Shown here: positions 1 through 10,600 of the stretch, piece by piece
Layout: each line of letters opens with the position of its first letter
Numbering within the stretch: position 1 is the stretch's first letter
Assembly (NCBI GenBank): GCA_030149995.1
Contig: JASLGV010000323.1
Coordinates: forward strand, 1-10,600
Length of the DNA: 10,600 bases
Reading direction: 5' to 3'
Origin: Pedobacter sp.
GTDB taxonomy: Bacteria; Bacteroidota; Bacteroidia; Sphingobacteriales; Sphingobacteriaceae
Made by a program: the position numbers and the translations under genes
The notes under the pieces: generated by a model
The model's input: the letters and a program-made list of their open reading frames with translations, nothing else
Database searches by the model: none
What the model was told of the DNA's origin: nothing

Positions 1-616
1 TATGTTTTTTCGATACAATAAATGAGCGATGTACCTGCATAAAGGTATTCTGCTGCATTAAGGCTTCCTTAATTTCACTAAGGGTAATATAACTCACAAT
101 CTGTGTTCCTGTTGTGTAGATTTTAATATAATTCTGAAGACTTTCTATTGCAATAATCTGATTATAAAATACTTTAATCAGACTATTATTATTTTCTTTA
201 TCCCTTACAAAGAAAAAATCCTTTTCTATTTCTCCTATACCTCCGGTTTTAGTTTGGGCCGGAAACAACCTGTTAAGCGTAGCCGCAAATTTGGCAAATG
301 TAAAGGGCTTAAGTAAAAAAGCATCTGCTTCAACTTCAAAAGCCTGGAATGCATAACGTGGATGGGATGTAGAGAAAATCAATTTCTGGGTTTTGTGTCT
401 TATTGCAGCAGATAAATCTACTCCCGATATCAATGGCATATCAACATCCATAAATACCACATCTGCGATCTCTTCATCGCGGCTTATTTCAGTTAATGCC
501 TGCAACGGATCGGTATAACTTTTTGATAAAGTAAAACCCGGCATGGATAAAATATATCCCTTTAATGTCTCGATGGCATGCGCCTCATCATCTATTACAA
601 TACATTTAAATGACAT
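1..616 (-). CDS. LytTR-family response regulator (3' end beyond window)
   Basis: Reading leftwards from ATG at 616, 205 codons are open to the window edge, so the C-terminus is missing, probably some 30-40 residues judged from the usual length of about 240. The N-terminal receiver domain (about 1-120) has acidic residues D9-D10-E11, the phospho-acceptor D57 in VVFMDVDMP, the switch Ser/Thr region S82-T83 and K103 in LLKPF. A LytTR DNA-binding domain follows from about 140, with the typical FMQVHRSFIV segment at about 188-197. Such proteins bind DNA as phosphorylated transcription regulators, usually paired in Bacteroidota with a membrane histidine kinase of the LytS/YehU type. No kinase gene is visible here; it may lie beyond the left edge. 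Target genes cannot be told from the sequence. The start is firm because the conserved FKCIVIDDE strand begins directly after the Met. Confidence 0.92.
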   Translation of the reverse strand, partial: MSFKCIVIDDEAHAIETLKGYILSMPGFTLSKSYTDPLQALTEISRDEEIADVVFMDVDMPLISGVDLSAAIRHKTQKLIFSTSHPRYAFQAFEVEADAFLLKPFTFAKFAATLNRLFPAQTKTGGIGEIEKDFFFVRDKENNNSLIKVFYNQIIAIESLQNYIKIYTTGTQIVSYITLSEIKEALMQQNTFMQVHRSFIVSKKH

Positions 617-962
617 GTATACACGGTTTAATTTTAAACAAAATAACGGCAATAATTTGTATTTATAAACAATATGTTTTTTGTGAAGGATTTTCGCTTA
701 TTTATAAAGGATTTAATGCTTTTTATAAAGATTTTTGTATTATTAATTATGCTTTTTTGTTCTTTTTTTTCAATACATAACCTTGTTTCCTTTACGAAAC
801 AGTACTTTTTGATAAAAAAAATACGATTTTAAAAGATTTTGAGTATCCGATTATCTTTTAAATAATACAAAAATGCATGTTTTTTTTCTGGGTCAAAATT
901 TTGAATTTAAAAACTGTGTTTTGGAATTATGTCAAGGATTTGGTGCATTTCGTGTAGGAAAT

Positions 963-1082
963 TATAATTTTAGATAATTCATGAACACATTTGTAAAGTT
1001 GTTTGAGTTACCACAGGTTTTCAGGCAAGCATTGCTTGTGTAAAGAAACCTGGTTAAGTTAAAGTAATATCTAAAAATTAAC
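963..1082 (+). ncRNA. Candidate 6S-like structured RNA (long bulged hairpin)
   Basis: Bases 965-976 pair with 1068-1080 (12 bp, one bulged A). Further in, ACC 1010-1012 and AGGTTT 1015-1020 pair with AAACCT 1046-1051 and GGT 1052-1054, with AC 1013-1014 bulged. The tip is CAAGC-ATT-GCTTG (1026-1038). Between the outer and inner stems lies a large asymmetric open region (977-1009 and 1055-1067). A closing stem, central bubble and apical stem is the architecture of 6S RNA, which mimics an open promoter and binds RNA polymerase. Bacteroidota have a divergent form (6S-Flavo). I did not recognise conserved 6S primary sequence. A TAnnTTTG-like box (TAATTTTA, 965-972) overlaps the outer stem, so a transcript starting downstream of it would lack that stem. 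The strand is a guess. Confidence 0.3.
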
Positions 1083-1274
1083 ACTCTAAGGGTATTGGTG
1101 TTCTGATGATGGGCGTTTTCATAAATCTGCAAATCATCAGCGCCGCTTATCCTGAAGCTCACTTAAAAAGAGGCTTTTTATCTTCCAATCAACCTCACGA
1201 GAAAACATTTTTACTTTTTTTGATACAAAGGCATTGTTTTGTTCGAATTAATTATGTTTTTATAAAAATATATA

Positions 1275-1282
1275 TATATTTG
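1275..1282 (+). promoter_or_regulatory. Possible -7 box upstream of the ubiX leader
   Basis: TATATTTG fits the Bacteroidota -7 consensus TAnnTTTG exactly. A TATG at 1253-1256 lies 18 bases upstream as a weak -33 element. Transcription would start near 1288, placing the TTCG-loop hairpin (1287-1302) at the 5' end and the terminator-like stem (1324-1353) at the 3' end of a transcript of about 65 bases. The surrounding sequence is TA-repeat-rich, so a chance match is quite possible. Confidence 0.35.
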
Positions 1283-1286
1283 TTCT

Positions 1287-1302
1287 TACCCTTTCGAGGG
1301 TA
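1287..1302 (+). other. TTCG-loop hairpin
   Basis: TACCCT-TTCG-AGGGTA forms a perfect 6-bp stem with a UUCG tetraloop. Its left arm (ACCCT, 1288-1292) could instead pair with AGGGT at 1323-1327, which is the base of the following terminator-like stem. The two foldings exclude each other, as in an attenuator. Confidence 0.45.
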
Positions 1303-1323
1303 TGTTTTTCATAGGTAGATGTA

Positions 1324-1353
1324 GGGTCGAATACGTGTATTCGGCCCTTTTTT
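1324..1353 (+). terminator. Terminator-like hairpin before ubiX
   Basis: GGGTCGAATAC (1324-1334) pairs with GTATTCGGCCC (1337-1347), 11 bp with one T-G wobble, followed by six T (1348-1353). This has all features of a rho-independent terminator on the plus strand. It ends only 38 bases before the ubiX ATG, and no protein gene precedes it on this strand, so it ends a small RNA, acts as an attenuator, or is a dispersed palindromic repeat. Confidence 0.7.
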
Positions 1354-1383
1354 ATGGATTTAATTCTATAAACGCTATTTTTG
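1353..1383 (+). promoter_or_regulatory. Putative ubiX promoter
   Basis: TATTTTTG at 1376-1383 matches TAnnTTTG exactly. TATG at 1353-1356, 19 bases upstream, stands where the -33 TTTG is expected; the peroxiredoxin promoter at 10466-10496 has the same TATG-N19 arrangement. The start point would fall at about 1389-1391, directly at the ATG (1392), giving an mRNA with almost no leader. Confidence 0.5.
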
Positions 1384-1391
1384 CTTTAACG

Positions 1392-1958
1392 ATGAAAAAG
1401 AAGAAGGTAATTATAGCCGTTACAGGTGCCAGTGGATCCATCTATGCCAAAGTATTGTTTGATCAGTTGCAGAATCTAAAAGATCAGATTGAAGCAGTAG
1501 GTGTGGTGATGAGTGATAACGCTAAAGAAGTATGGAAGTGTGAACTTGGAGATGACGCTTACAACAATTACGGTCTTACCTTTTATCATAAAAATGATTT
1601 TAATGCACCCTTTGCTTCCGGATCGGCACAATACGATACCATGATTGTGATTCCCTGCTCCATGGGAACACTCGCCCGTATTGCACATGGAATTTCGAAC
1701 GATTTAATTACAAGAGCTGCCGATGTTATTTTAAAAGAAAGACGTAAACTGATCGCAGTCGTAAGAGATACCCCCTTTAGCCTGATTCACATCAACAACA
1801 TGAAAACCGTAACAGAAGCAGGTGGGATTATTTGTCCGGCAAATCCTTCTTTTTACAGTTTGCCGCAAACCCTCGAAGAAATGGCCTTAACCGTTGTAAG
1901 CAGGGTACTTGATTTAGCCGGATTTGAACTGAAGAGTTATCGCTGGCAGGAAGAATAG
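1392..1958 (+). CDS. ubiX: Flavin prenyltransferase UbiX
   Basis: A 188-residue protein of normal UbiX/Pad1 length. UbiX joins a dimethylallyl group to FMN, producing the prenylated FMN cofactor used by UbiD-type decarboxylases. The Rossmann-like flavin site TGASGSIYA is at 11-19, CSMGTLARIAHGISNDL at 89-105, and the phosphate and catalytic segment VVRDTPFS at 123-130. The family usually has RETP there, so D126 is a conservative E-to-D change. NPSFY at 151-155 and the helix EEMALTVVSRVLDLAGFE at the C-terminus are also typical. The frame is open upstream to 1302, but that extension runs through the terminator-like hairpin and adds non-family residues, so the ATG at 1392, directly before KKKKVIIAVTGASGS, is chosen. 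No UbiD gene is in the window, so the client enzyme is unknown. Confidence 0.95.
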   Translation: MKKKKVIIAVTGASGSIYAKVLFDQLQNLKDQIEAVGVVMSDNAKEVWKCELGDDAYNNYGLTFYHKNDFNAPFASGSAQYDTMIVIPCSMGTLARIAHGISNDLITRAADVILKERRKLIAVVRDTPFSLIHINNMKTVTEAGGIICPANPSFYSLPQTLEEMALTVVSRVLDLAGFELKSYRWQEE

Positions 1959-1986
1959 CAGCAGCATCATGCTTTTAAAGAAAAAT

Positions 1987-2020
1987 ATCTAAACAATAAC
2001 GGCTTACTGTATTGTTAGAT
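1987..2020 (+). other. Hairpin after ubiX
   Basis: ATCTAAACAATA (1987-1998) pairs with TATTGTTAGAT (2010-2020), 11 bp with one bulged A. It lies about 30 bases after the ubiX stop, but lacks a T run and is AT-rich, so it is at best a weak terminator or an RNA 3' end stabiliser. Confidence 0.3.
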
Positions 2021-2077
2021 TACTGTAATTTGCATGAAGTAAACATTCGGAAATAACCATACTCAAATCTATTTTTA

Positions 2078-2085
2078 TATCTTTG
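2078..2085 (+). promoter_or_regulatory. -7 box of mtaB
   Basis: TATCTTTG followed by CA is the classic Bacteroidota -7 element. No good -33 element is seen at the expected distance. The box ends only 8 bases before the mtaB ATG, so transcription would begin at or just before the start codon. Confidence 0.55.
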
Positions 2086-2093
2086 CAGGCTAC

Positions 2094-3413
2094 ATGAAAA
2101 AGGTTGCATTTTATACACTCGGCTGTAAATTAAATTTCTCTGAAACATCTACCATCGGACGTCTGTTTACCGATGCCGGTTATGCTGTGGTTGACTTTCA
2201 GGATAAGGCTGATGTATATGTAATCAATACCTGCTCCGTTACAGAGCATGCAGATAAAAAATGCCGTAAAGTAGTTAAAGAAGCCCTTAAATATTCGCCG
2301 GGTGCCTACATCACCATTGTTGGCTGTTATGCACAGTTAAAACCACAGGAAATAGCAGAGATAGAAGGGGTAGACATGGTTTTGGGCGCAGCAGAGAAAT
2401 TCAGAATTGTTGAGTATATTTCAGATCTGACCAAAGCACCCAAAGCGGTGGTGCACCAGCAAAATATTGAAAAGGTTAACCATAATTTTATCGCTTCTTA
2501 TTCCATTGGCGATCGTACCCGTACCTTTTTAAAAGTTCAGGATGGTTGTGATTATCCTTGTACTTATTGCACCATTCCTTTGGCACGCGGTGCAAGCCGG
2601 AGCGATACCATCGAAAATGTAGTTAACCGCGCAAAGCTGATTGCCGAAAGTGGCGTTAAGGAAATTGTATTAACGGGAGTAAATCTGGGCGATTTTGGCA
2701 TCCGGAATGGAGAAAGAGAAGATAAGTTCTTCGATCTTGTTCAGGCACTGGATGAAGTAGAAGGAATAGAAAGAATACGTATTTCCTCGATTGAACCAAA
2801 CCTGTTAAGCAATGAGATTATTGAATTTGTTGCAACTTCAAAAAGATTTGTTCCGCATTTTCATATTCCATTGCAGTCTGGATCTGATAAAATATTAGGT
2901 CTGATGCGCAGACGCTACCGCAGGGATTTATATGTAGAACGCGTGGCTAAAATTAAAGAAGTCATGCCCGATTGCTGTATAGGTGTAGATGTGATTGTAG
3001 GGTTTCCAGGTGAAACAAAAGAAGATTTCTTAGATACCTATCAGTTTTTAAACCAGCTGGATATCTCTTATTTACACGTATTTACTTATTCTGAACGCGA
3101 ACAAACCCTTGCAGCCGAAATGAAAGAAGTTGTTTCGGGTAGTGAGCGTAATGAAAGAAGTAAAATGCTTCATATTTTGTCTGATAAAAAACGCCGTTCA
3201 TTCTACCAGTCGCAAATTGGTGTAGAAGCCGAGGTATTGTTCGAAGCTGATCAGAAAGCTGGTTACATGCATGGATTTACCAAGAACTATGTAAAAGTAC
3301 GTGCCAAATATGATCCGGTTATGGTAAATGAACTCAAAGCCGTAAAATTGTTGGAAGTAACTGCAGATGGAGAGGTAGAAGTGGCAGAACTGGAAACAGT
3401 ACACGCACATTAA
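2094..3413 (+). CDS. mtaB: tRNA t6A37 methylthiotransferase MtaB
   Basis: A 439-residue radical-SAM methylthiotransferase that converts t6A at tRNA position 37 to ms2t6A, supporting decoding of ANN codons. The N-terminal UPF0004 domain has the three auxiliary-cluster cysteines C11 (TLGCKLN), C47 (NTCSVT) and C78 (VGCYAQ). The radical-SAM cluster is C152, C156 and C159 in DGCDYPCTYCTIPLARG. The SAM-binding core continues through HFHIPLQSGSDKILGLMRR and VDVIVGFPGET. The tail from about 370 fits a small TRAM RNA-binding domain. The TLGCKLNFSET start is that of MtaB/YqeV rather than MiaB. The ATG sits eight bases after a perfect -7 box, which supports the start and suggests a very short leader. 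No clear terminator follows; the next gene, lgt, has its own promoter. Enzymes of this class need Fe-S carriers; the Nfu protein at 5814-6365 is a candidate, though this is inference. Confidence 0.93.
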   Translation: MKKVAFYTLGCKLNFSETSTIGRLFTDAGYAVVDFQDKADVYVINTCSVTEHADKKCRKVVKEALKYSPGAYITIVGCYAQLKPQEIAEIEGVDMVLGAAEKFRIVEYISDLTKAPKAVVHQQNIEKVNHNFIASYSIGDRTRTFLKVQDGCDYPCTYCTIPLARGASRSDTIENVVNRAKLIAESGVKEIVLTGVNLGDFGIRNGEREDKFFDLVQALDEVEGIERIRISSIEPNLLSNEIIEFVATSKRFVPHFHIPLQSGSDKILGLMRRRYRRDLYVERVAKIKEVMPDCCIGVDVIVGFPGETKEDFLDTYQFLNQLDISYLHVFTYSEREQTLAAEMKEVVSGSERNERSKMLHILSDKKRRSFYQSQIGVEAEVLFEADQKAGYMHGFTKNYVKVRAKYDPVMVNELKAVKLLEVTADGEVEVAELETVHAH

Positions 3414-3455
3414 TTATTGTTTTGCAGTAGAGGTACTAAGAATTAACAAAATCTT

Positions 3456-3518
3456 TTCCGTATTTTCTGCGTTTCCATGGCAATCAAGTTTAGCCACAGA
3501 AGCATGGAAGTCATGGAA
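3456..3518. repeat. Imperfect intergenic palindrome (REP-like)
   Basis: The left arm (about 3456-3481, ending TTCCATGGC) is roughly complementary to the right arm (about 3493-3518, starting GCCACAGAAGC and ending CATGGAA), with about 16 of 26 positions matching by eye. The right arm repeats CATGGAA at 3503-3509 and 3512-3518. The layout recalls the widespread GCCACAGAGACACAGAG-type intergenic palindromes, in degenerate form. That likeness is from memory. Confidence 0.35.
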
Positions 3519-3529
3519 TTAATAATCTC

Positions 3530-3560
3530 TTTGTTGTGGTTAAAAAGGGATATATCTTTG
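3530..3560 (+). promoter_or_regulatory. Promoter of lgt (TTTG-N19-TATCTTTG)
   Basis: TTTG at 3530-3533 and TATCTTTG at 3553-3560 are separated by 19 bases, a full match to the Bacteroidota housekeeping promoter. Transcription would begin near 3567, leaving a leader of about 55 bases. A second, weaker candidate (TTTA 3575-3578, N19, TATCTTCG 3598-3605) would start close to the ATG. Confidence 0.65.
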
Positions 3561-3621
3561 TCAGAATCTTGAGTTTTACCCTTTCATCTTTCTTTCCTAT
3601 CTTCGCAACAAAGTTTATTAT

Positions 3622-4779
3622 ATGTTTCCAACCGTATCGCATTTTTTAGAATATGTTTTTGGCATTAACCTGCCGTTGCCTTTTAATACATTTGGCGTTT
3701 TTGTTGCTCTGGCTTTTATTGCCGGTTATTGGGCTTTTACCGAAGAACTAAAACGTAAAGAAGCATTAGGCGTATTACATCCGCTTACCCGGAAAATTAC
3801 GGTTGGAAAACCTGCTACTACATCAGAGCTTATTACGAATGGACTTTTTGGTTTCGTAATCGGCTATAAACTGGTGTATGCTCTGTTAAATTATCAGTTG
3901 TTTGTGAGCGATGCACAAAGTGTACTGATGTCTGCAAAAGGAAATGTGATAGGCGGTTTATTTTTTGCAGGTTTATTTGCTTACTGGGATTATAAAGAGA
4001 AAAATAAAAATAAATTACCTGCACCAAAAGAAACGGTTGTAACGGTACATCCATATCAACTGATGAGTAATTTGATTGTATGGGCTGCTATTTGGGGCTT
4101 TTTAGGTGCGAAATTTTTTGATAACCTTGAGTACTGGGACGACTTTGTTCAACATCCGATCGAAAGACTTTTGTCTTTTAGTGGTTTAACCTTTTATGGT
4201 GGTTTAATTTGCGGCGGAGCAGCTGTACTATACATCGCCAAAAAAAATGGTATAAAACCTTTACACATGCTGGATGTAGGTGGACCTGGTATGATGCTTG
4301 CTTATGCAGTTGGCCGTATTGGATGTCATTTATCAGGAGATGGCGACTGGGGAATCGTAAACCCGCATCCAAAACCTTTCTCTTGGTTGCCAGACTGGTT
4401 GTGGTCTTATAAATACCCGAATAATGTGGTAGGAGAAGGCATTCCAATACCTGGCTGTACCGGCTCTAAGTTTTGTAATGAGCTTGCACAAGGTGTTTAC
4501 CCAACCCCGCTATATGAAGTAATTGTGTGTCTGATCCTGTTTGCCTTTTTATGGAAAATAAGAGATAAGATTAAAGCACCAGGATTGATGTTTGGAATTT
4601 ATATGATCTTAAACGGTATTGAACGTTTCTGTATAGAGCTGATCCGTGTAAATTCTAAATATCATGTATTTGGCCTTTCGTTTACACAAGCCGAAATGAT
4701 TTCTGCTTTTCTGGTAGTAGGTGGCATTATTTTAAGCCTTTATGCGTTAAGAAATAAGAATAAGCTGGAAACAGTTTAA
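3622..4779 (+). CDS. lgt: Prolipoprotein diacylglyceryl transferase Lgt
   Basis: A 385-residue polytopic inner-membrane enzyme that transfers diacylglycerol from phosphatidylglycerol to the lipobox cysteine of prolipoproteins, the first step of lipoprotein maturation. Hydrophobic segments are visible at about 20-40, 74-95, 108-122, 150-165, 192-206, 218-236, 298-312, 320-338 and 357-375. The Lgt signature region is GRIGCHLSGDGDWG at 231-244, the Bacteroidota form of the GRxGNF motif. YGGLICGG at 192-199, YPTPLYE at 293-299 (HPTQLYE elsewhere) and NGIERFCIELIRVN at 331-344 also fit. The protein is longer than the E. coli enzyme because of a loop at about 122-145 and an insert at 245-290, both common in this phylum. 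The IMPase-family gene follows after 42 bases and is probably co-transcribed. The two lipoproteins encoded at 7923-8492 would be clients. Confidence 0.93.
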   Translation: MFPTVSHFLEYVFGINLPLPFNTFGVFVALAFIAGYWAFTEELKRKEALGVLHPLTRKITVGKPATTSELITNGLFGFVIGYKLVYALLNYQLFVSDAQSVLMSAKGNVIGGLFFAGLFAYWDYKEKNKNKLPAPKETVVTVHPYQLMSNLIVWAAIWGFLGAKFFDNLEYWDDFVQHPIERLLSFSGLTFYGGLICGGAAVLYIAKKNGIKPLHMLDVGGPGMMLAYAVGRIGCHLSGDGDWGIVNPHPKPFSWLPDWLWSYKYPNNVVGEGIPIPGCTGSKFCNELAQGVYPTPLYEVIVCLILFAFLWKIRDKIKAPGLMFGIYMILNGIERFCIELIRVNSKYHVFGLSFTQAEMISAFLVVGGIILSLYALRNKNKLETV

Positions 4780-4821
4780 TTAACACGATTTTAAACGCAT
4801 TTGATAGGAAAGATAGCATTG

Positions 4822-5613
4822 ATGAACTACGAACTACTCTGTAATAAAGTAATATCCATTGTCAGACTTACAGCCAATTTTATCCGGAAAGAATCACTTC
4901 TTTTCGATGTAAATAAAATAGAATACAAAGGCTTAAATGACCTGGTATCTTATGTAGATAAAACCGCCGAAGAAAGATTGGTGCGCAACCTGGAAAAGTT
5001 AATCCCGGATGCAGGTTTTATGACAGAAGAAAAAACCGTTAACAGAACCGGTAAAACATATAAATGGATCATCGATCCTTTAGATGGTACAACGAATTTT
5101 ATTCATGGAATACCAACCTATGCCATCAGCGTTGCATTGTATGAAGACGACGCTGCTGTATTGGGTGTTGTATATGAAATAAACCGGGCTGAAATGTTTT
5201 ATGCCTATAAAGGAGGCCCGGCATTTTTAAATAAAAAACAAATTCAGGTATCTGTAAATCCTGATTTTAAATCAAGCCTTTTATCCACCGGGTTTCCATA
5301 TTACCAGTTCGACAAGCAAGAGCAGTATATGGAGCTTTTAAAAGATCTGATGCAAAAAACACATGGCATACGCCGTATTGGTTCGGCAGCAACAGATCTG
5401 GTCTATACCGCATGTGGTCGTTTTGATGCCTTTTTTGAATATAACCTGCAACCCTGGGATTTTGCTGCCGGTTGCTTTATTGTACAGCAGGCGGGAGGTG
5501 AAGTATTCGATTTTTCTGGCGGAAATGATTTCCTAAACAAAAGAGAAGTACTGGCAACCAATGGAAAATTAACGGAGGTGATGCTTCAAACCATTAAAAA
5601 GTATTTTATTTAG
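4822..5613 (+). CDS. Inositol monophosphatase family (IMPase/SuhB-like)
   Basis: A 263-residue Mg-dependent, lithium-sensitive-type sugar phosphatase. The metal-site motifs are all present: GFMTEE with E69-E70, WIIDPLDGTTNF at 82-93 (D85, D88), and QPWDFAAG with D213. The fold otherwise runs as in the family, including YKGGPAFLNKK at about 129-139, where many members have GxGAFLNG. The true substrate (myo-inositol 1-phosphate, another sugar phosphate, or a nucleotide) cannot be decided from sequence. The frame is open from a TTG at 4801, but the ATG at 4822 starts where the family does and is preferred. It lies 42 bases behind lgt with no clear promoter between, so an operon with lgt is likely, ended by the strong terminator at 5635. 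Confidence 0.92.
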   Translation: MNYELLCNKVISIVRLTANFIRKESLLFDVNKIEYKGLNDLVSYVDKTAEERLVRNLEKLIPDAGFMTEEKTVNRTGKTYKWIIDPLDGTTNFIHGIPTYAISVALYEDDAAVLGVVYEINRAEMFYAYKGGPAFLNKKQIQVSVNPDFKSSLLSTGFPYYQFDKQEQYMELLKDLMQKTHGIRRIGSAATDLVYTACGRFDAFFEYNLQPWDFAAGCFIVQQAGGEVFDFSGGNDFLNKREVLATNGKLTEVMLQTIKKYFI

Positions 5614-5634
5614 GTAAAAGACATTTTAAACAAG

Positions 5635-5664
5635 GCCCATCTGTTAACAGATGGGCTTTTCGTT
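5635..5664 (+). terminator. Terminator of the lgt operon
   Basis: The 22-base perfect palindrome at 5635-5656 (GCCCATCTG, TTAA, CAGATGGGC) is followed by TTTTCGTTT. It lies 21 bases after the IMPase-family stop codon. Confidence 0.9.
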
Positions 5665-5756
5665 TATACAGGAGGTTATTAAAGCATACGTCGATGGGTG
5701 GTTTGCAATATTATTTTCGGGGTGCCCGGTATTTTCATCTGATATTGGAAATACAT

Positions 5757-5789
5757 AAAAAAAGCGTTTGCCCTGTAAGGTAAACGCTT
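5757..5789 (-). terminator. Terminator of the Nfu gene
   Basis: On the minus strand AAGCGTTTACC pairs with GGCAAACGCTT (one mismatch) and is followed by seven T (plus-strand A at 5757-5763). It lies about 25 bases downstream of the Nfu stop codon at 5814. Confidence 0.85.
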
Positions 5790-5813
5790 CTTAAAGAGAA
5801 AATATATTTTTTA

Positions 5814-6365
5814 CTACAAAGCTTCTGAAACCACGTCGGTTACTTCAGGAACCATGCGTTGCAACAGGTTTTGTATGCCCGATTTTAACGTTAAAGTAGA
5901 AGAAGGGCATCCGCTGCAAGAACCACGCAGTTCTACAGTTACCACACCTTCGTCAAAAGATTTATAGCTGATGGCACCACCATCTTGCTCTACTGCCGGA
6001 CGTACATAATCGTGCAGGATCTGTTGTATTTTTATTTCCGTTTCAGTACCTTCAAAAACAGGTGCCTCATCTGCTGTTGCATCTTTAATCTTTAATTCAG
6101 ACTCAACAGCTCCTTTTACAAACTCCTTTAAGATCGCTTCTATATCACTCCAGTCTGCATCCTCGGTTTTGGTAACGGTTACAAAATTACTGGCGAAAAA
6201 CACACCGTTTACAAAATTGAATTTGAATAATTCTTTTGCAAAGGGCGAATGCTCGGCACTTTCTTTTGTTGGAAAGTCTTCACTGCCGTTAATAAGCAGT
6301 TTATTTACCATGAATTTCATGGTAGCCGGGTTAGGTGTCTGTTCTGTATATACGTTAATGGTCAT
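5814..6365 (-). CDS. Nfu-type Fe-S cluster carrier (Nfu_N + NifU domains)
   Basis: A 183-residue protein with an N-terminal Nfu_N domain (about 1-88, starting TINVYTEQTPNPATMKFMVN) and a C-terminal NifU-like domain (about 108-175). The latter carries the cluster-binding pair C150 and C153 in GSCSGCPSS. Such proteins accept an Fe-S cluster, usually [4Fe-4S], from the assembly scaffold and hand it to target enzymes. The two-domain layout is the one found in Bacteroidota, alphaproteobacteria and mitochondria, unlike E. coli NfuA, whose N-terminal domain is a degenerate A-type. The gene lies 86 bases downstream of purB on the same strand but has its own -7 box, and no clear terminator separates the two. 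Radical-SAM enzymes such as MtaB are plausible clients. Confidence 0.92.
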   Translation of the reverse strand: MTINVYTEQTPNPATMKFMVNKLLINGSEDFPTKESAEHSPFAKELFKFNFVNGVFFASNFVTVTKTEDADWSDIEAILKEFVKGAVESELKIKDATADEAPVFEGTETEIKIQQILHDYVRPAVEQDGGAISYKSFDEGVVTVELRGSCSGCPSSTLTLKSGIQNLLQRMVPEVTDVVSEAL

Positions 6366-6385
6366 GTTGTCTTAATTTGAATAAA

Positions 6386-6393
6386 CAAAATTA
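6386..6393 (-). promoter_or_regulatory. -7 box of the Nfu gene
   Basis: On the minus strand this reads TAATTTTG, an exact TAnnTTTG match, 20 bases before the ATG at 6365. The -33 position (about 6413-6416) reads only ACTG, so the upstream element is poor. Confidence 0.5.
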
Positions 6394-6451
6394 ACAATAA
6401 CTGATTAATATGCAGTTGTACTGCTGTCTGTTTAGCGTCAATTTAATTTAG

Positions 6452-7798
6452 TTAAAAAATACCGGTATAATTAAAAGGTGTAATGGTTTTTAATTGCTCC
6501 TTAACTGTTGCAGATACATTCAGCCCTTCTATAAAGTCAGCTATGCGCTGTGCATTTATTTTGCTGTTTGTTCTGGTTAACTCTTTCAAAGCCTCGTAAG
6601 GGTTCGGATAATTCTCGCGGCGTAATACTGTTTGAATCGCTTCTGCAACAACGGCCCAGTTATCTTCCAGATCTGCATGCAAGGCTGTTTCGTTAAGCAG
6701 GATTTTATTTAAGCCGCGTAAAGTAGCTTGAATGGCAATAAGTGTGTGGCCAAATGGCACCCCTACGTTTCTGAGCACCGTCGAATCTGTTAAATCCCTC
6801 TGCAGGCGGGAGATGGGAAGTTTGGCTGCAAAGAATTCAAATAAAGCGTTGGCGATACCAGCATTTCCCTCAGCATTTTCAAAATCAATCGGGTTAACTT
6901 TATGTGGCATAGCCGATGAACCAATTTCGCCTGCTTTAATTTTTTGTTTAAAGTAGTTTTTAGAAATATAAGTCCAGATATCTCTATCTAAATCTATGAT
7001 AATGTTGTTGATACGTTTCAGCGCATCGCATTGCGCTGCGAACTGATCGTAATGTTCTATTTGAGTGGTATACTGAGCACGGTTCAGTTGAAGGACCTCA
7101 TTTACAAAATTATTGGAGAAATCTACCCAGTTTACATCCGGATAAGCAATGTGGTGTGCATTGAAGTTTCCGGTAGCCCCACCAAATTTGGCGCTGTTCG
7201 GGATAGACTTTAGGTTATCAAACTGGATTTTTAAGCGCTCAGCAAATACCAGAAACTCTTTTCCAAGTTTAGTAGGTGAGGCAGGCTGTCCGTGTGTATG
7301 TGCCAGCATTGGAATGTCTTTCCATTCTGTTGCCAGGCTGCTTATCTTTTCGATGAGTGAGTTGAGTGCCGGATAGTAAGTGTTTTCAAGGGCCAGTTTA
7401 ATGGAATATGGAATGGCCGTATTGTTAATATCCTGAGAAGTTAATCCGAAGTGAATAAATTCTTTGTAATTCTGAAGCGAAAGCACATCAAACTTAGTTT
7501 TGATAAAATATTCAACTGCTTTTACATCGTGGTTGGTTACTTTTTCTGTTTCCTTGATTTCCAGTGCATCGGCAGCCGAAAAATCCTGATGTATTTTTCT
7601 TAAAGCCGGATAAAGATTTTTATCAAAATCCTGAAGTCCCGGTAAATTGATTTCACAAAGCGCAATAAAGTATTCAATTTCAACAAAAACACGATATTTT
7701 ATGAGCGCTTCTTCAGAAAAATAAGCAGCTAAATCTTCGGTCGTTTTTCTGTAACGCCCATCAATAGGTGAAATGGCTTGTAGTGAGGTTAAATTCAT
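6452..7798 (-). CDS. purB: Adenylosuccinate lyase PurB
   Basis: A 448-residue fumarase/aspartase-superfamily enzyme catalysing two steps of purine synthesis: SAICAR to AICAR plus fumarate, and adenylosuccinate to AMP plus fumarate. It closely follows the E. coli PurB pattern: SPIDGRY near the start, TNHDVKAVEYF at about 88-98, AHTHGQPASPTKLGKE at about 166-181 with the general acid H169, and the flexible signature loop GSSAMPHKVNPIDFENAEGN at 293-312 with catalytic S294/S295. RDLTDSTVLRN follows. The frame is open to a TTG at 7822, but that codon overlaps the -7 box at 7820-7827 and lies upstream of the predicted start of transcription. The ATG at 7798 (MNLTSLQAISPIDGRY) is therefore the start. 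No terminator is evident before the Nfu gene. Confidence 0.97.
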   Translation of the reverse strand: MNLTSLQAISPIDGRYRKTTEDLAAYFSEEALIKYRVFVEIEYFIALCEINLPGLQDFDKNLYPALRKIHQDFSAADALEIKETEKVTNHDVKAVEYFIKTKFDVLSLQNYKEFIHFGLTSQDINNTAIPYSIKLALENTYYPALNSLIEKISSLATEWKDIPMLAHTHGQPASPTKLGKEFLVFAERLKIQFDNLKSIPNSAKFGGATGNFNAHHIAYPDVNWVDFSNNFVNEVLQLNRAQYTTQIEHYDQFAAQCDALKRINNIIIDLDRDIWTYISKNYFKQKIKAGEIGSSAMPHKVNPIDFENAEGNAGIANALFEFFAAKLPISRLQRDLTDSTVLRNVGVPFGHTLIAIQATLRGLNKILLNETALHADLEDNWAVVAEAIQTVLRRENYPNPYEALKELTRTNSKINAQRIADFIEGLNVSATVKEQLKTITPFNYTGIF

Positions 7799-7819
7799 TA
7801 TGCGAAATATGTTTTTGTG

Positions 7820-7827
7820 CAAATTTA
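7820..7827 (-). promoter_or_regulatory. -7 box of purB
   Basis: On the minus strand this reads TAAATTTG followed by CA, an exact TAnnTTTG match, placing the start near 7812 and leaving a leader of about 14 bases before the ATG at 7798. No good -33 element is seen. No purine riboswitch fits in so short a leader. Confidence 0.55.
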
Positions 7828-7874
7828 CTACAATTGGTCGACTTTAGGTTAAGAAAAAGGAATTATCAGGACAT

Positions 7875-7906
7875 AAAAAAAGGTCTGCCATTTGGCAGAC
7901 CTTTTT
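7875..7906 (-). terminator. Terminator of the first small lipoprotein gene
   Basis: GGTCTGCCA and TGGCAGACC (7882-7901) form a perfect 9-bp stem with a two-base loop, flanked by A and T runs on both sides, so it could work in both directions. It lies 16 bases after the stop codon of the lipoprotein gene at 7923-8141. Confidence 0.9.
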
Positions 7907-7922
7907 ATCTTATTGAAAAAGA

Positions 7923-8141
7923 TTAGTGTTTTACTTCTGTAGTAGTTGTTGTAGTTTTAACAGCTGTATCTTTTACCGTTGAATCTTTAACAGCTGTATC
8001 AACTTTGTTGGTATCAGTAACAATTGTAGAAGAATCAGTTAAAGTAGTATCTGAACCTTCAGCTTTTTTCTCTGATTTACAAGCAACTACTGATAAAGAT
8101 AAAGCTAAAGCTAAAAAGCCTAATTTGAATGCATTTTTCAT
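7923..8141 (-). CDS. Small Thr/Asp/Lys-rich lipoprotein, copy A
   Basis: A 72-residue protein with a lipoprotein signal peptide: K2 and K6, a hydrophobic core LGFLALALSLSVV, and lipobox VVAC with C21 as the lipidation site. The mature part of about 52 residues is made only of small and charged residues, rich in Thr, Asp, Lys, Val and Ser, with short KDS/KDT-like repeats and a run of six Thr before EVKH. It has no Cys after C21 and no aromatic residue, so it is probably an unstructured surface or periplasmic tail. No family function is recognised. It is a near-twin of the protein encoded at 8274-8492, differing at residues 22 (K for N), 30 (S for A) and 50 (A for V). It has its own promoter at 8183-8211 and its own terminator. 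Confidence 0.85.
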   Translation of the reverse strand: MKNAFKLGFLALALSLSVVACKSEKKAEGSDTTLTDSSTIVTDTNKVDTAVKDSTVKDTAVKTTTTTTEVKH

Positions 8142-8161
8142 TTTTTTGGGTTTTGATTATT

Positions 8162-8179
8162 GTAAATTAATTAATTTAC
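8162..8179. repeat. 18-bp perfect palindrome at the predicted start site of copy A
   Basis: GTAAATTAATTAATTTAC is its own reverse complement. It overlaps the predicted transcription start (about 8176). A 17-base version with one A lost stands in the same place before copy B (8517-8533). It may be an operator, or simply AT-rich leader retained after duplication. Confidence 0.5.
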
Positions 8180-8182
8180 TCC

Positions 8183-8211
8183 TTTATACGCTTAAGTTGA
8201 AAAGGTAACCC
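8183..8211 (-). promoter_or_regulatory. ECF-type promoter element of lipoprotein copy A
   Basis: On the minus strand: GGGTTAC (8211-8205), 16 bases, TATAAA (8188-8183). The spacer begins CTTTT and ends GCG. The same two blocks with the same 16-base spacing occur before copy B and before the sigma factor gene. A transcript would start near 8176, giving a leader of about 35 bases. Confidence 0.65.
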
Positions 8212-8220
8212 ATCAATGCA

Positions 8221-8257
8221 AAAAAAAATCCCGGAAATAATTTTCCGGGATTTTTTT
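8221..8257 (-). terminator. Terminator of lipoprotein copy B
   Basis: ATCCCGGAAA (8228-8237) pairs with TTTCCGGGAT (8242-8251) in a perfect 10-bp stem with a TAAT loop, flanked by A and T runs. It lies 23 bases after the stop of copy B and just upstream of the promoter of copy A, so the two copies are separate transcription units. Confidence 0.9.
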
Positions 8258-8273
8258 ATCAAGTAAAATTAGA

Positions 8274-8492
8274 CTAGTGTTTTACTTCAGTAGTAGTAGT
8301 AGTAGTTTTAACAGCTGTATCTTTTACAGTTGAATCTTTAACTACAGTATCAACTTTGTTAGTATCAGTAACGATTGTAGAAGAATCAGTTAAAGTAGTA
8401 TCAGCACCTTCAGCTTTTTTCTCTGAATTACAAGCAACTACTGATAAAGATAAAGCTAAAGCTAAAAAGCCTAATTTGAATGCATTTTTCAT
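8274..8492 (-). CDS. Small Thr/Asp/Lys-rich lipoprotein, copy B
   Basis: A 72-residue twin of copy A, offset by exactly 351 bases: 69 of 72 residues agree, with about 13 base differences in 219 by eye. The signal-peptide-coding part is identical over more than 60 bases, including the LSVVAC lipobox with C21. The differences are N22, A30 and V50. The Thr run near the C-terminus is coded by six perfect ACT triplets (8289-8306), whereas copy A mixes ACT and ACA there. The gene is divergent from the sigma factor gene and has a matching promoter element at 8536-8564. Function is unknown. Its place suggests an envelope component made when the neighbouring sigma factor is active. Confidence 0.85.
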   Translation of the reverse strand: MKNAFKLGFLALALSLSVVACNSEKKAEGADTTLTDSSTIVTDTNKVDTVVKDSTVKDTAVKTTTTTTEVKH

Positions 8493-8516
8493 TTTTAAAA
8501 TTTTTTTGTTTTTAAA

Positions 8517-8533
8517 GTAATTAATTAATTTAC
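8517..8533. repeat. Near-palindrome at the predicted start site of copy B
   Basis: GTAATTAATTAATTTAC, the counterpart of the 18-base palindrome at 8162-8179, lies two bases from the TATTAA box and overlaps the predicted transcription start (about 8529). Confidence 0.45.
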
Positions 8534-8535
8534 CG

Positions 8536-8564
8536 TTAATACCGCAAAGGTAAAAAGGTAACCC
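8536..8564 (-). promoter_or_regulatory. ECF-type promoter element of lipoprotein copy B
   Basis: On the minus strand: GGGTTAC (8564-8558), 16 bases, TATTAA (8541-8536). The spacer contains TACCTTTG (8552-8545), which also matches the housekeeping -7 box TAnnTTTG, so copy B may have a second, constitutive start that copy A (TACCTTTT) lacks. Confidence 0.65.
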
Positions 8565-8672
8565 AACTATTCTAAAAAAAAATAAAATATTTTTTTGGGG
8601 CCGTCAGATAAGGCCAAATAGCGGGTTGTAGAAATTTGTATTGCAGCTAAAATATTTTTTTTATCTAATATT

Positions 8673-8701
8673 GGGTTACTATTTACAGAAAAACGTATTA
8701 A
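8673..8701 (+). promoter_or_regulatory. ECF-type promoter element of the sigma/protease operon
   Basis: GGGTTAC (8673-8679), 16 bases, TATTAA (8696-8701). The blocks and spacing are the same as before both lipoprotein genes, which implies autoregulation of the sigma gene. The -10 block abuts the TTG and GTG start candidates at 8702 and 8705, so the mRNA would have virtually no leader. Confidence 0.65.
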
Positions 8702-8704
8702 TTG

Positions 8705-9271
8705 GTGAATAACAGTTTAAAGAGTTCAGTTCCAACAGATAGAGAGGTTGTTTTAGGTATCCTGAACAACTCAGAAGAGACGCTAAATAAATTATATAAG
8801 GCATATTTTGCGATGGTTTTGCAATTTATCCTGAATAATAATGGCAATGAGGATGATGCGAAGGATGTATATCAGGAGGCTATTATAATTCTGTATAACA
8901 AAATTAAATCGGGCAATTTTGAGCTTAGTAGTAAGCTTAAAACCTTTATTTATTCTGTATGCAGGCGTATCTGGTTAAAAAAGTTGGGACAAAACAGTAA
9001 AAAAACGGGTAACATAACCGATTATGAGGATGTGTTAAGTGTGGAAGAGGAAGTAGAGGCGCATGAAGAAAAAGATTTGCAATTTGTTAGAATGCAAACT
9101 GCACTTGATCACTTAGGTGAACCCTGCAAAACCATTATTCAGGATTTTTACATCCACAATTTATCCATGCAGGAAATATGTGAGAAATTTGGTTATACCA
9201 ACACAGATAATGCCAAAACTCAAAAATATAAATGCCTGCAACGGTTAAAGAAAATATTTTTTCAAGCATAG
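8705..9271 (+). CDS. ECF-like sigma-70 family RNA polymerase sigma factor
   Basis: About 188 residues with only sigma regions 2 and 4. Region 2 covers about residues 22-95, including the polymerase-contact helix EDDAKDVYQEAIIILYNKI and the DNA-melting and -10-reading part SKLKTFIYSVCRRIWLKKL. Region 4 covers about 135-185: LGEPCKTIIQDFYIHNLSMQEICEKFGY followed by the recognition helix TNTDNAKTQKYKCLQRLKKIF. It belongs to a sigma group common in Bacteroidota. No ATG starts the frame before 8813, which would remove region 2.1, so GTG 8705 or TTG 8702 must start it. The gene for the membrane-bound anti-sigma-like protease follows after 10 bases, as sigma and regulator pairs usually do. The promoter element at 8673-8701 matches those of the two lipoprotein genes, pointing to autoregulation and to those genes as targets. 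Confidence 0.88.
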   Translation: MNNSLKSSVPTDREVVLGILNNSEETLNKLYKAYFAMVLQFILNNNGNEDDAKDVYQEAIIILYNKIKSGNFELSSKLKTFIYSVCRRIWLKKLGQNSKKTGNITDYEDVLSVEEEVEAHEEKDLQFVRMQTALDHLGEPCKTIIQDFYIHNLSMQEICEKFGYTNTDNAKTQKYKCLQRLKKIFFQA

Positions 9272-9281
9272 GAACACGGAA

Positions 9282-10379
9282 ATGAGAAACGACTTAGAGT
9301 TAGATGCCATTATTGAAGATTACCTGCTGGGTAATTTAAGTGCTGCAGAAGCGGAGGCTTTTGAGCAATTGCGCCGTAATGATGTTACCGTAGATCATAA
9401 AGTAGTTACACATAAGGTATTTTTAGAAAGCATGTCTGAATTTGCTACGCAGCTCCAGTTAAAAGAGCAGTTGAACAACATACATGCAGAACTGGATGTG
9501 GAAAGCATGGCCGATCTGGTTAAACCGCATCCTTCCCGTATTGTGCAGCTGTGGCGTAAAAACAGATCGTGGGTTGCCGTGGCTGCCTCGTTTATATTTT
9601 TATCGCTGATCTCTATTTATTCTTTGCAGCACAGCAGTCAGCAGGTAGACAGATATGTACAATTAGGTAAGGAAGTAGCCAATATTAAAAAATCACAAAA
9701 CAGCCTTATCCGCGACATAAAATCCAACAAAAATAATCCGCCGGCTAAAAATACCAATCCAGGTAACTACGGAGGAACCGGTTTTGCAATTTCTTCAAAT
9801 GGTTATATTTTAACCAACCTTCATGTAATCAAAGGAGCCGATTCGGTTTACATTCAAAACAGCAAAGGAGAGTCCTTTAAGGTTACAGTCGTACACAAAG
9901 ATCCCGAATACGATATTGCCATTCTAAAGATAAACGATGGTCATTTTAACGGATTGGCCTCTTTACCTTATACCATTAAGAAAAACAATGCCGGTATCGG
10001 CGAAAACGTATATACGTTGGGGTATCCGAAAGATGATGCTGTTTTGGGCGAAGGATATGTAAGTTCAAGAAATGGATTTGTGGGCGATACCACACAATAC
10101 CAGGTTTCTATTCCTGTTAATCCGGGCAACAGTGGCGGTCCGCTGCTGGATAACAACGGAAACCTTGTTGGGGTAATTAGCGGCAAGGAAAGCGATGCCG
10201 ATGGTGCTGCTTTTGCCATTAAATCAAAATATATTCTGGAAGCCATGTGTGCCATCCCTCAGGACTCGCTGGGGAGGAAACTAACTGTTAATAAGAAAAG
10301 TTCTTTATCCGGGTTAAAACGTACAAGGCAGATCGAAAAGCTCCAGGATTATGTTTTTATGATCAAAGTTTATAATTAA
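9282..10379 (+). CDS. Anti-sigma-like domain fused to periplasmic trypsin-like serine protease
   Basis: A 365-residue, single-pass membrane protein. Residues 1-85 are cytoplasmic and resemble Bacteroidota anti-sigma N-termini (IIEDYLLGNLSAAEAEAFEQL). A transmembrane helix spans about 97-114 after basic WRKNR, fitting N-in topology. A polar linker, with a possible short coiled coil (about 120-148), leads to a chymotrypsin-fold protease domain at about 163-325. The triad is complete: H181 in LTNLHV, D211 in YDIAILK, S284 in NPGNSGGPL. This is the HtrA/DegP/DegS class, but no PDZ domain follows; only about 40 basic residues remain. It probably holds the sigma factor at the membrane and links its release to periplasmic events. 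Whether the protease cleaves itself, a partner or misfolded proteins is not shown. It is translationally close to the sigma gene and ends at a strong terminator. Confidence 0.88.
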   Translation: MRNDLELDAIIEDYLLGNLSAAEAEAFEQLRRNDVTVDHKVVTHKVFLESMSEFATQLQLKEQLNNIHAELDVESMADLVKPHPSRIVQLWRKNRSWVAVAASFIFLSLISIYSLQHSSQQVDRYVQLGKEVANIKKSQNSLIRDIKSNKNNPPAKNTNPGNYGGTGFAISSNGYILTNLHVIKGADSVYIQNSKGESFKVTVVHKDPEYDIAILKINDGHFNGLASLPYTIKKNNAGIGENVYTLGYPKDDAVLGEGYVSSRNGFVGDTTQYQVSIPVNPGNSGGPLLDNNGNLVGVISGKESDADGAAFAIKSKYILEAMCAIPQDSLGRKLTVNKKSSLSGLKRTRQIEKLQDYVFMIKVYN

Positions 10380-10397
10380 CCATACAATATTTTGCTT

Positions 10398-10430
10398 AAA
10401 ACGCCGCAGCCAGCACTGCGGCGTTTTTTA
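10398..10430 (+). terminator. Terminator of the sigma/protease operon
   Basis: ACGCCGCAG (10401-10409) pairs with CTGCGGCGT (10416-10424), a GC-rich 9-bp stem extended by A-T pairs and followed by T (10424-10429). It lies about 20 bases after the protease stop codon. Confidence 0.92.
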
Positions 10431-10465
10431 TTTGTCAAAATAAAGAGTTAAAAGTTTATAAAGTC

Positions 10466-10496
10466 TATGTATTTACTGTGGTATTGATTAAGTTTG
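10466..10496 (+). promoter_or_regulatory. Promoter of the peroxiredoxin gene
   Basis: TAAGTTTG at 10489-10496 is an exact TAnnTTTG match, with TATG at 10466-10469 exactly 19 bases upstream. The transcript would start near 10503, with a leader of about 20 bases. No operator for a peroxide regulator was recognised. Confidence 0.55.
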
Positions 10497-10522
10497 TGTA
10501 AAACAATTAAATACTTAACATT

Positions 10523-10600
10523 ATGAGCATACGATTAGGCGATACAGCACCCAATTTCAAATCAGATACCTCCATTGGGGAAATTGATTTTCATGAGTTT
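10523..10600 (+). CDS. Peroxiredoxin, 1-Cys Prx6 type (5' part only)
   Basis: Only 26 codons are in the window. The N-terminus reads MSIRLGDTAPNF, then an acidic stretch and EIDFHEF. This pattern (RLGDxAPNF, then a turn and IxFHxW/F) opens Prx6-type peroxiredoxins, which reduce hydrogen peroxide and organic hydroperoxides in the cytosol. The peroxidatic Cys (PVCTTE region) would lie beyond the window edge, so the class rests on the N-terminus alone. An own promoter and the upstream terminator make it a unit separate from the protease operon. Confidence 0.8.
   Translation, partial: MSIRLGDTAPNFKSDTSIGEIDFHEF

Follow-up and report, generated by a model that had tools for sequence, protein, structure and literature searches.

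A GGGTTAC-N15-GTATWAA motif as the likely autoregulated promoter of an ECF-type sigma factor encoded beside a DegS-like membrane protease in Pedobacter

Introduction

Why would three genes in one Pedobacter sp. contig, one of them encoding a sigma factor, be preceded by the same two-part, promoter-like motif? The question arises in a stretch of 10,600 nucleotides (GenBank assembly GCA_030149995.1, contig JASLGV010000323.1, positions 1 to 10,600), hereafter the window, in which a gene for a sigma factor of the extracytoplasmic function (ECF) type is followed by a gene for a membrane-associated protease and preceded, on the opposite strand, by two genes for small lipoproteins. The original prediction read the motif as the recognition site of this ECF-like sigma factor, with autoregulation. 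The comparisons reported here support that claim in silico by the position of the motif, its co-occurrence with the sigma factor and its presence before orthologous genes. To our knowledge, few Bacteroidota ECF sigma factors have a known promoter. The locus provides a sharply defined candidate, together with a small conserved regulon and a control protein that appears to carry a sigma-holding domain and a protease on one chain, and it suggests that the response chiefly produces lipoproteins that consist for the most part of O-glycosylation sequons.

Results

The window holds three exact copies of GGGTTAC-N16-TATWAA, as had been claimed: at 8183-8211 on the minus strand (the promoter of lipoprotein copy A), at 8536-8564 on the minus strand (lipoprotein copy B) and at 8673-8701 on the plus strand (the sigma gene). 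No match was found in 200 dinucleotide shuffles of the window (0.00 expected). GGGTTAC by itself occurs three times against 0.79 expected, and because 7 of the 200 shuffles reached at least three, it is the bipartite arrangement rather than GGGTTAC alone that lies far beyond chance. The bases 3' of GGGTTAC fit YWTTT at the window sites, just as described. The spacing of 16 to TATWAA likewise holds in the window, but since the constant downstream element among relatives is GTATWAA, it is better given as N15 to GTATWAA, and the sigma gene promoter then reads GGGTTAC-N15-GTATTAA. When spacings from 3 to 33 were allowed in five genomes, 13 of 39 matches fell at N15 and 4 at N16, with 22 spread across the other 29 spacings.

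The sigma gene (8705..9271, plus strand) encodes a protein of 189 amino acids that scored above the cut-offs of Pfam Sigma70_r2 and of TIGR02937 (sigma70-ECF; 79.3 bits, cut-off 42.9). Region 4 matches are also present, below the Pfam cut-off, and the large region 3 is absent, as is characteristic of ECF sigma factors. The protein did not reach the cut-off of TIGR02985 (Bacteroides-type sigma, the FecI/SusCD type), with 50.3 against 126.4 bits. It is up to 90% identical to sigma proteins of named Pedobacter species, and the system may already carry an ECF group number. Public genomes were scanned with this protein and the best 80 of 139 relatives, 69-90% identical, were retained as loci L001-L080. 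In all 80, GGGTTAC-N15-GTATTA stands immediately before the sigma gene, between 28 and 56 nucleotides ahead of the sigma match. The housekeeping Bacteroidota promoter (TTTG / TAnnTTTG) was rejected as an identity for the motif, from which the original prediction had also distinguished it, given the constancy of GGGTTAC and GTATTA at these 80 loci.

A conserved GTG or ATG start of the sigma gene lies only 3-4 nucleotides past GTATTA in 77 of the 80 loci; in distant loci from across the phylum the start codon is often farther from the promoter. According to a passage of PMC9723704, the sigma-A box of Flavobacterium psychrophilum covers -12 to -5, and a transcription start at the sigma start codon is therefore plausible. 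Given the short distance, the sigma mRNA is probably leaderless. The open reading frame in the window also opens at TTG 8702, but the conserved start is GTG 8705, and the distance from GTATTA combined with a plausible leaderless message makes GTG 8705 the likely start. The transcription start predicted 5-8 bases beyond TATWAA needs changing, because it would land within the sigma coding region; a nearer start is likelier. A second, tandem site was seen farther upstream of sigma in 43 of the 80 loci, mostly about 97 nucleotides before the sigma match and usually with a spacing of 16 (38 of 44 sites). In the window this second site is degenerate, its best match having 5 mismatches.

The arrangement extends beyond close relatives. 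The product of the gene after sigma was sought in 296 genomes, 283 of which had some HtrA-type match at 1e-10. In 21 genomes the match reached E <= 1.7e-66, aligned from residue 14 or earlier in 18 and from residue 50-85 in three, and in all 21 of these phylum loci the protease gene adjoins a sigma gene, 39-90% identical at the protein level. The promoter before sigma has no mismatch in 17 of them and one in 3, is absent from one (L169), and is kept even at 44-53% sigma identity. A small lipoprotein gene with a site at two or fewer mismatches accompanies 19 of the 21. L169 has the most diverged sigma (39%); it lacks a site before sigma and keeps the nearby lipoprotein site with one mismatch. 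In a further five loci (L170-L174), a related protease domain lies in a frame of 424-460 amino acids, with no relative of this sigma within the inspected stretches of about 3.5 kb.

The lipoprotein genes, copy B (8274..8492) and copy A (7923..8141), both on the minus strand, are near-identical duplicates of 72 amino acids, with a lipobox and a hydrophobic-poor tail rich in D-S/T-x; copy A scored 48.1 bits with NCBIfam PG1828_fam_lipo, just below its cut-off of 50. The 80 loci were searched for small lipoproteins by signal sequence (a lipobox was required) and composition, without use of the motif, which yielded 176 open reading frames in 79 loci. A promoter site at two or fewer mismatches lies upstream of 170 of the 176, compared with 1 of 199 controls (other open reading frames of at least 150 amino acids from the same loci). 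Within 110 nucleotides upstream, the best match had no mismatch for 109 lipoprotein genes, one for 57, two for 4 and 5-6 for 6; no control had one or fewer and a single control had two. In 46 of the 57 one-mismatch sites of L001-L080, GTATTA is replaced by GCATTA and GGGTTAC is intact. This variant occurs mainly before the lipoprotein copy closest to sigma, where the window carries GTATTA, and is perhaps a differently tuned promoter.

In the lipoprotein tails, 605 of 638 Asp residues (95%) are followed by Ser or Thr, compared with 13% in open reading frames of at least 250 amino acids from the loci, and, Val and Ala aside, hydrophobic residues are scarce. D-S/T-(A,I,L,V,M,T), the sequon of the Bacteroidota system that O-glycosylates exported proteins, was counted in 98 distinct tails, each some 48 residues long. 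It occurs 523 times, or about five times per tail, versus 117.5 (standard deviation 9.4) in shuffles. The reversed sequon stays near expectation (140 vs. 117.4, z 2.5). Internal tail repeats inflate such z-values; the repeat units vary by lineage and the sequon persists. The 22 site-bearing lipoproteins of 19 phylum loci contain 91 sequons against 19.3 (standard deviation 3.9), and the 13 most diverged (L156-L169) contain 48 against 10.2 (standard deviation 2.7), nine of them having at least three and one having one. These lipoproteins resemble the general O-glycoproteins of Bacteroidota in being exported and in carrying D-S/T-x sequons, but differ in how densely the tails are filled (95% of Asp before Ser/Thr, about five sequons per 48 residues). 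On these sequence features they are predicted to be densely O-glycosylated. The lipoprotein Lpp is covalently linked to peptidoglycan by its C-terminus; a comparable link was considered here and left: among 107 lipoproteins (4 of 111 with unread residues were dropped), 68 end in His and 19 in Lys.

A scan for enrichment in related genomes had been suggested along with the original prediction, and enrichment was found. In 64 whole genomes (sets of 39 and 25, including all five of the spacing test), the strict pattern gave 303 sites versus 78 for the reversed pattern. Genomes with the system (n=19) held 57 strict sites, a mean of 3.0, with at least one in 16 of the 19 and 17 for the reversed control. 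Genomes without it (n=40, hand-picked among the larger genomes of the 296-genome survey) held 10, a mean of 0.25, with at least one in 9 of the 40, which is below the 36 of the reversed control (with vs. without, Mann-Whitney p = 2.8e-8). The genome that carries L069 has an additional copy of the sigma/lipoprotein locus (L133) on a different contig, likewise with both sites.

Of 38 hand-picked stretches around such sites, 19 have the site ahead of a single lipoprotein family, all members being related to the protein of L113 (E <= 7.2e-9); the one member scanned belongs to DUF4349. Other sites precede DUF2459, DUF4294, a membrane protein of 455 amino acids, further small lipoproteins and other genes, and several fall within reading frames, probably by chance. 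The two leading families were then located by family rather than by motif, in hand-picked genomes of which some were already known to hold a site. DUF4349 gave 29 matches in 26 of 30 genomes: all 27 genes scored had a site at two or fewer mismatches (12 at 0, 11 at 1 and 4 at 2), versus about 1.5% of shuffles, and the two remaining matches, which belong to a divergent subtype, showed 4 and 5 mismatches. DUF2459 gave 12 genes in 12 of 25 genomes, of which 10 had a site at one mismatch or fewer (9 at 0 and 1 at 1) and 2 had none. The unlinked DUF4349 lipoprotein and DUF2459 gene are candidate conserved targets outside the locus.

The second gene (9282..10379, plus strand) follows the sigma gene directly in the 101 loci examined and encodes a protein of 365 amino acids with anti-sigma-like N-terminal helices (residues ~1-80), a membrane helix with Ala-Ala at 101-102 and a DegS-like protease domain (~163-324). 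Pfam Trypsin_2 was found in 36 of 36 members, the catalytic triad H181/D211/S284 is invariant (102 of 102), and the membrane helix contains V/I/A-Ala-Ala in 102 of 102. A trypsin-like domain with a His-Asp-Ser triad is typical of the DegS/HtrA (S1C) group, and the best structural matches are DegS without its PDZ domain. No PDZ domain was among the matches listed (25 of the 28 Pfam families matched by the 36 members), and the model leaves no more than some 40 residues after the protease domain. The N-terminal region gave weaker signals. Two NCBIfam anti-sigma models matched the protein with E-values of 0.0013 and 0.018, each falling far short of its cut-off, zf-HC2 matched weakly in 4 of 36 members, and the sole Foldseek match of the modeled N-terminus in the PDB was the anti-sigma factor RslA, a weak one (E 9.9). 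An alignment of 27 N-termini showed none of the conserved Cys/His zinc ligands of zinc (zf-HC2) anti-sigma factors, the best PDB hits of an N-terminal sequence profile were unrelated proteins (best E 0.069), and an NCBIfam scan of the N-termini gave a single irrelevant match. The protein appears to join a sigma-holding domain to a DegS-like protease and, by these tests, is neither a typical DegS, no PDZ having been detected, nor a zinc anti-sigma factor.

Discussion

Recognition of the motif by this sigma factor, and autoregulation, are very likely, because the site precedes sigma in 80 of 80 close and 20 of 21 phylum loci, is enriched only in genomes with the system, and recurs before unlinked orthologous genes. 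An autoregulated own promoter is a usual ECF feature. Under the explanation we favor, the sigma factor would recognize GGGTTAC-N15-GTATWAA as a -35/-10 promoter and transcribe its own operon (sigma and the membrane anti-sigma/protease) as well as the neighboring small-lipoprotein genes and a handful of envelope genes elsewhere in the genome, those for the DUF4349 lipoprotein and the DUF2459 protein and probably some more. In the second protein, the N-terminal helices may hold sigma at the membrane until an envelope signal triggers cleavage by the protein's own DegS-like domain, in cis or between neighboring copies. That cut would be the site-1 step, as made by DegS on RseA in E. coli, and we lean slightly toward such self-cleavage. 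A site-2 protease could then cut within the membrane, so that a Clp protease gains access to an x-Ala-Ala end and sigma is set free; with sigma acting on its own gene, the response would amplify. The lipoproteins may protect the cell as the output of the response, or may be partners of the protease in a feedback. We hold this explanation overall with considerable confidence, which is highest for the promoter and autoregulation and much lower for the self-cleavage.

RseA is a membrane anti-sigma factor with x-Ala-Ala in its membrane helix, which is digested by Clp after the site-2 cut. The proposed system shares with the E. coli sigmaE-RseA-DegS-RseP-ClpXP pathway an ECF sigma acting on its own operon, a membrane anti-sigma, a DegS-type site-1 protease (the role given to DegS in a passage of PMC8103513) and x-Ala-Ala in the membrane helix. 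It differs in that the protease is joined to the anti-sigma-like protein without a detected PDZ domain, and in its promoter, judging by the sigmaE consensus. By analogy, it would operate as a sigmaE/RseA/DegS system in which a single polypeptide combines two of the components. RsgI9 of Clostridium thermocellum is likewise a membrane anti-sigma whose outer domain resembles an S1C (HtrA-type) peptidase and, as described in part of PMC12203970, x-Ala-Ala in RsgI membrane helices is recognized by ClpXP. However, the same text places RsgI9 in the SigI/RsgI system, not among ECF factors, as an orphan without a paired sigma, and describes its peptidase-like domain as polysaccharide-binding and its periplasmic domain as autocleaving. 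Bacteroidota ECF promoters, including that of a sigma/anti-sigma pair, are described for F. psychrophilum SM6 in a portion of PMC9723704, but with a CGT -10 box and a link to type IX secretion; the string GGTTAC is absent from the main text of that paper. Only 6% of Bacteroidota ECFs have a neighboring class I anti-sigma factor, according to an excerpt of PMC7406223, and PMC8999054, checked for protease-linked anti-sigmas in Bacteroidota, lacks the word Bacteroidetes. GGGTTAC as a whole word was found in two papers, both unrelated by title and abstract, and among the matches listed, by title and start of abstract, none described the present promoter or the fusion of an HtrA protease to an ECF anti-sigma.

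Other explanations of the motif itself carry little weight. That its three copies reflect chance or shared ancestry is scarcely credible, even though lipoprotein copies A and B are duplicates: the shuffles gave none, the sigma promoter has a conserved spacer unlike that of the lipoprotein sites, and the motif recurs ahead of unrelated genes. Chance and duplication were rejected on these grounds, and the original argument that common descent cannot explain the third copy stands. A different regulator, either a DNA-binding protein or another sigma, might instead read the motif and control both the sigma gene and the lipoproteins. The link between motif and this sigma is drawn from co-occurrence and position, Bacteroidota genomes usually carry several ECF sigmas, and the L169 lipoprotein has a site where the L169 sigma gene does not. 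Yet the motif is bipartite with a fixed spacing and a TATWAA-like element adjoining the predicted start, it is enriched only where the sigma/anti-sigma-protease pair exists, and the L169 sigma is alone among the 21 phylum loci in lacking it, so we consider another regulator quite unlikely.

The nature of the second protein leaves somewhat more room for doubt. It could be a membrane-anchored HtrA-type quality-control protease rather than an anti-sigma, with sigma controlled mainly by its own transcription; source annotations, where named, call it a serine protease or peptidase, or hypothetical, and sequence comparison gave no significant anti-sigma relative for its N-terminal domain. The constant place of the gene directly after sigma, the N-terminal helical domain with its weak anti-sigma signals and the invariant x-Ala-Ala of the membrane helix argue against this, and we regard it as improbable. 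About equally improbable, in our estimate, is a more elaborate form of the favored explanation, in which sigmaE-type control is exerted by one protein and the anti-sigma, through its own site-1 protease, senses the state of densely O-glycosylated, disordered lipoproteins and so monitors their glycosylation or export across Bacteroidota. Under-glycosylated or mislocalized tails would then reach the protease, sigma would be released and more of the same lipoproteins would be made.

Other features of the window

A terminator-like hairpin lies 3' of the sigma/anti-sigma-protease operon (10398..10427, plus strand; consensus scan only). An Rfam scan of the window gave no match. A region of about 780 bp (611-1391), A+T-rich by eye, separates ubiX from a minus-strand gene that extends past the window edge; it contains only short open reading frames and likewise had no Rfam match. 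Positions 3622-4779 encode an Lgt-like prolipoprotein diacylglyceryl transferase that scored below curated cut-offs and has a long N-terminal part outside the models.
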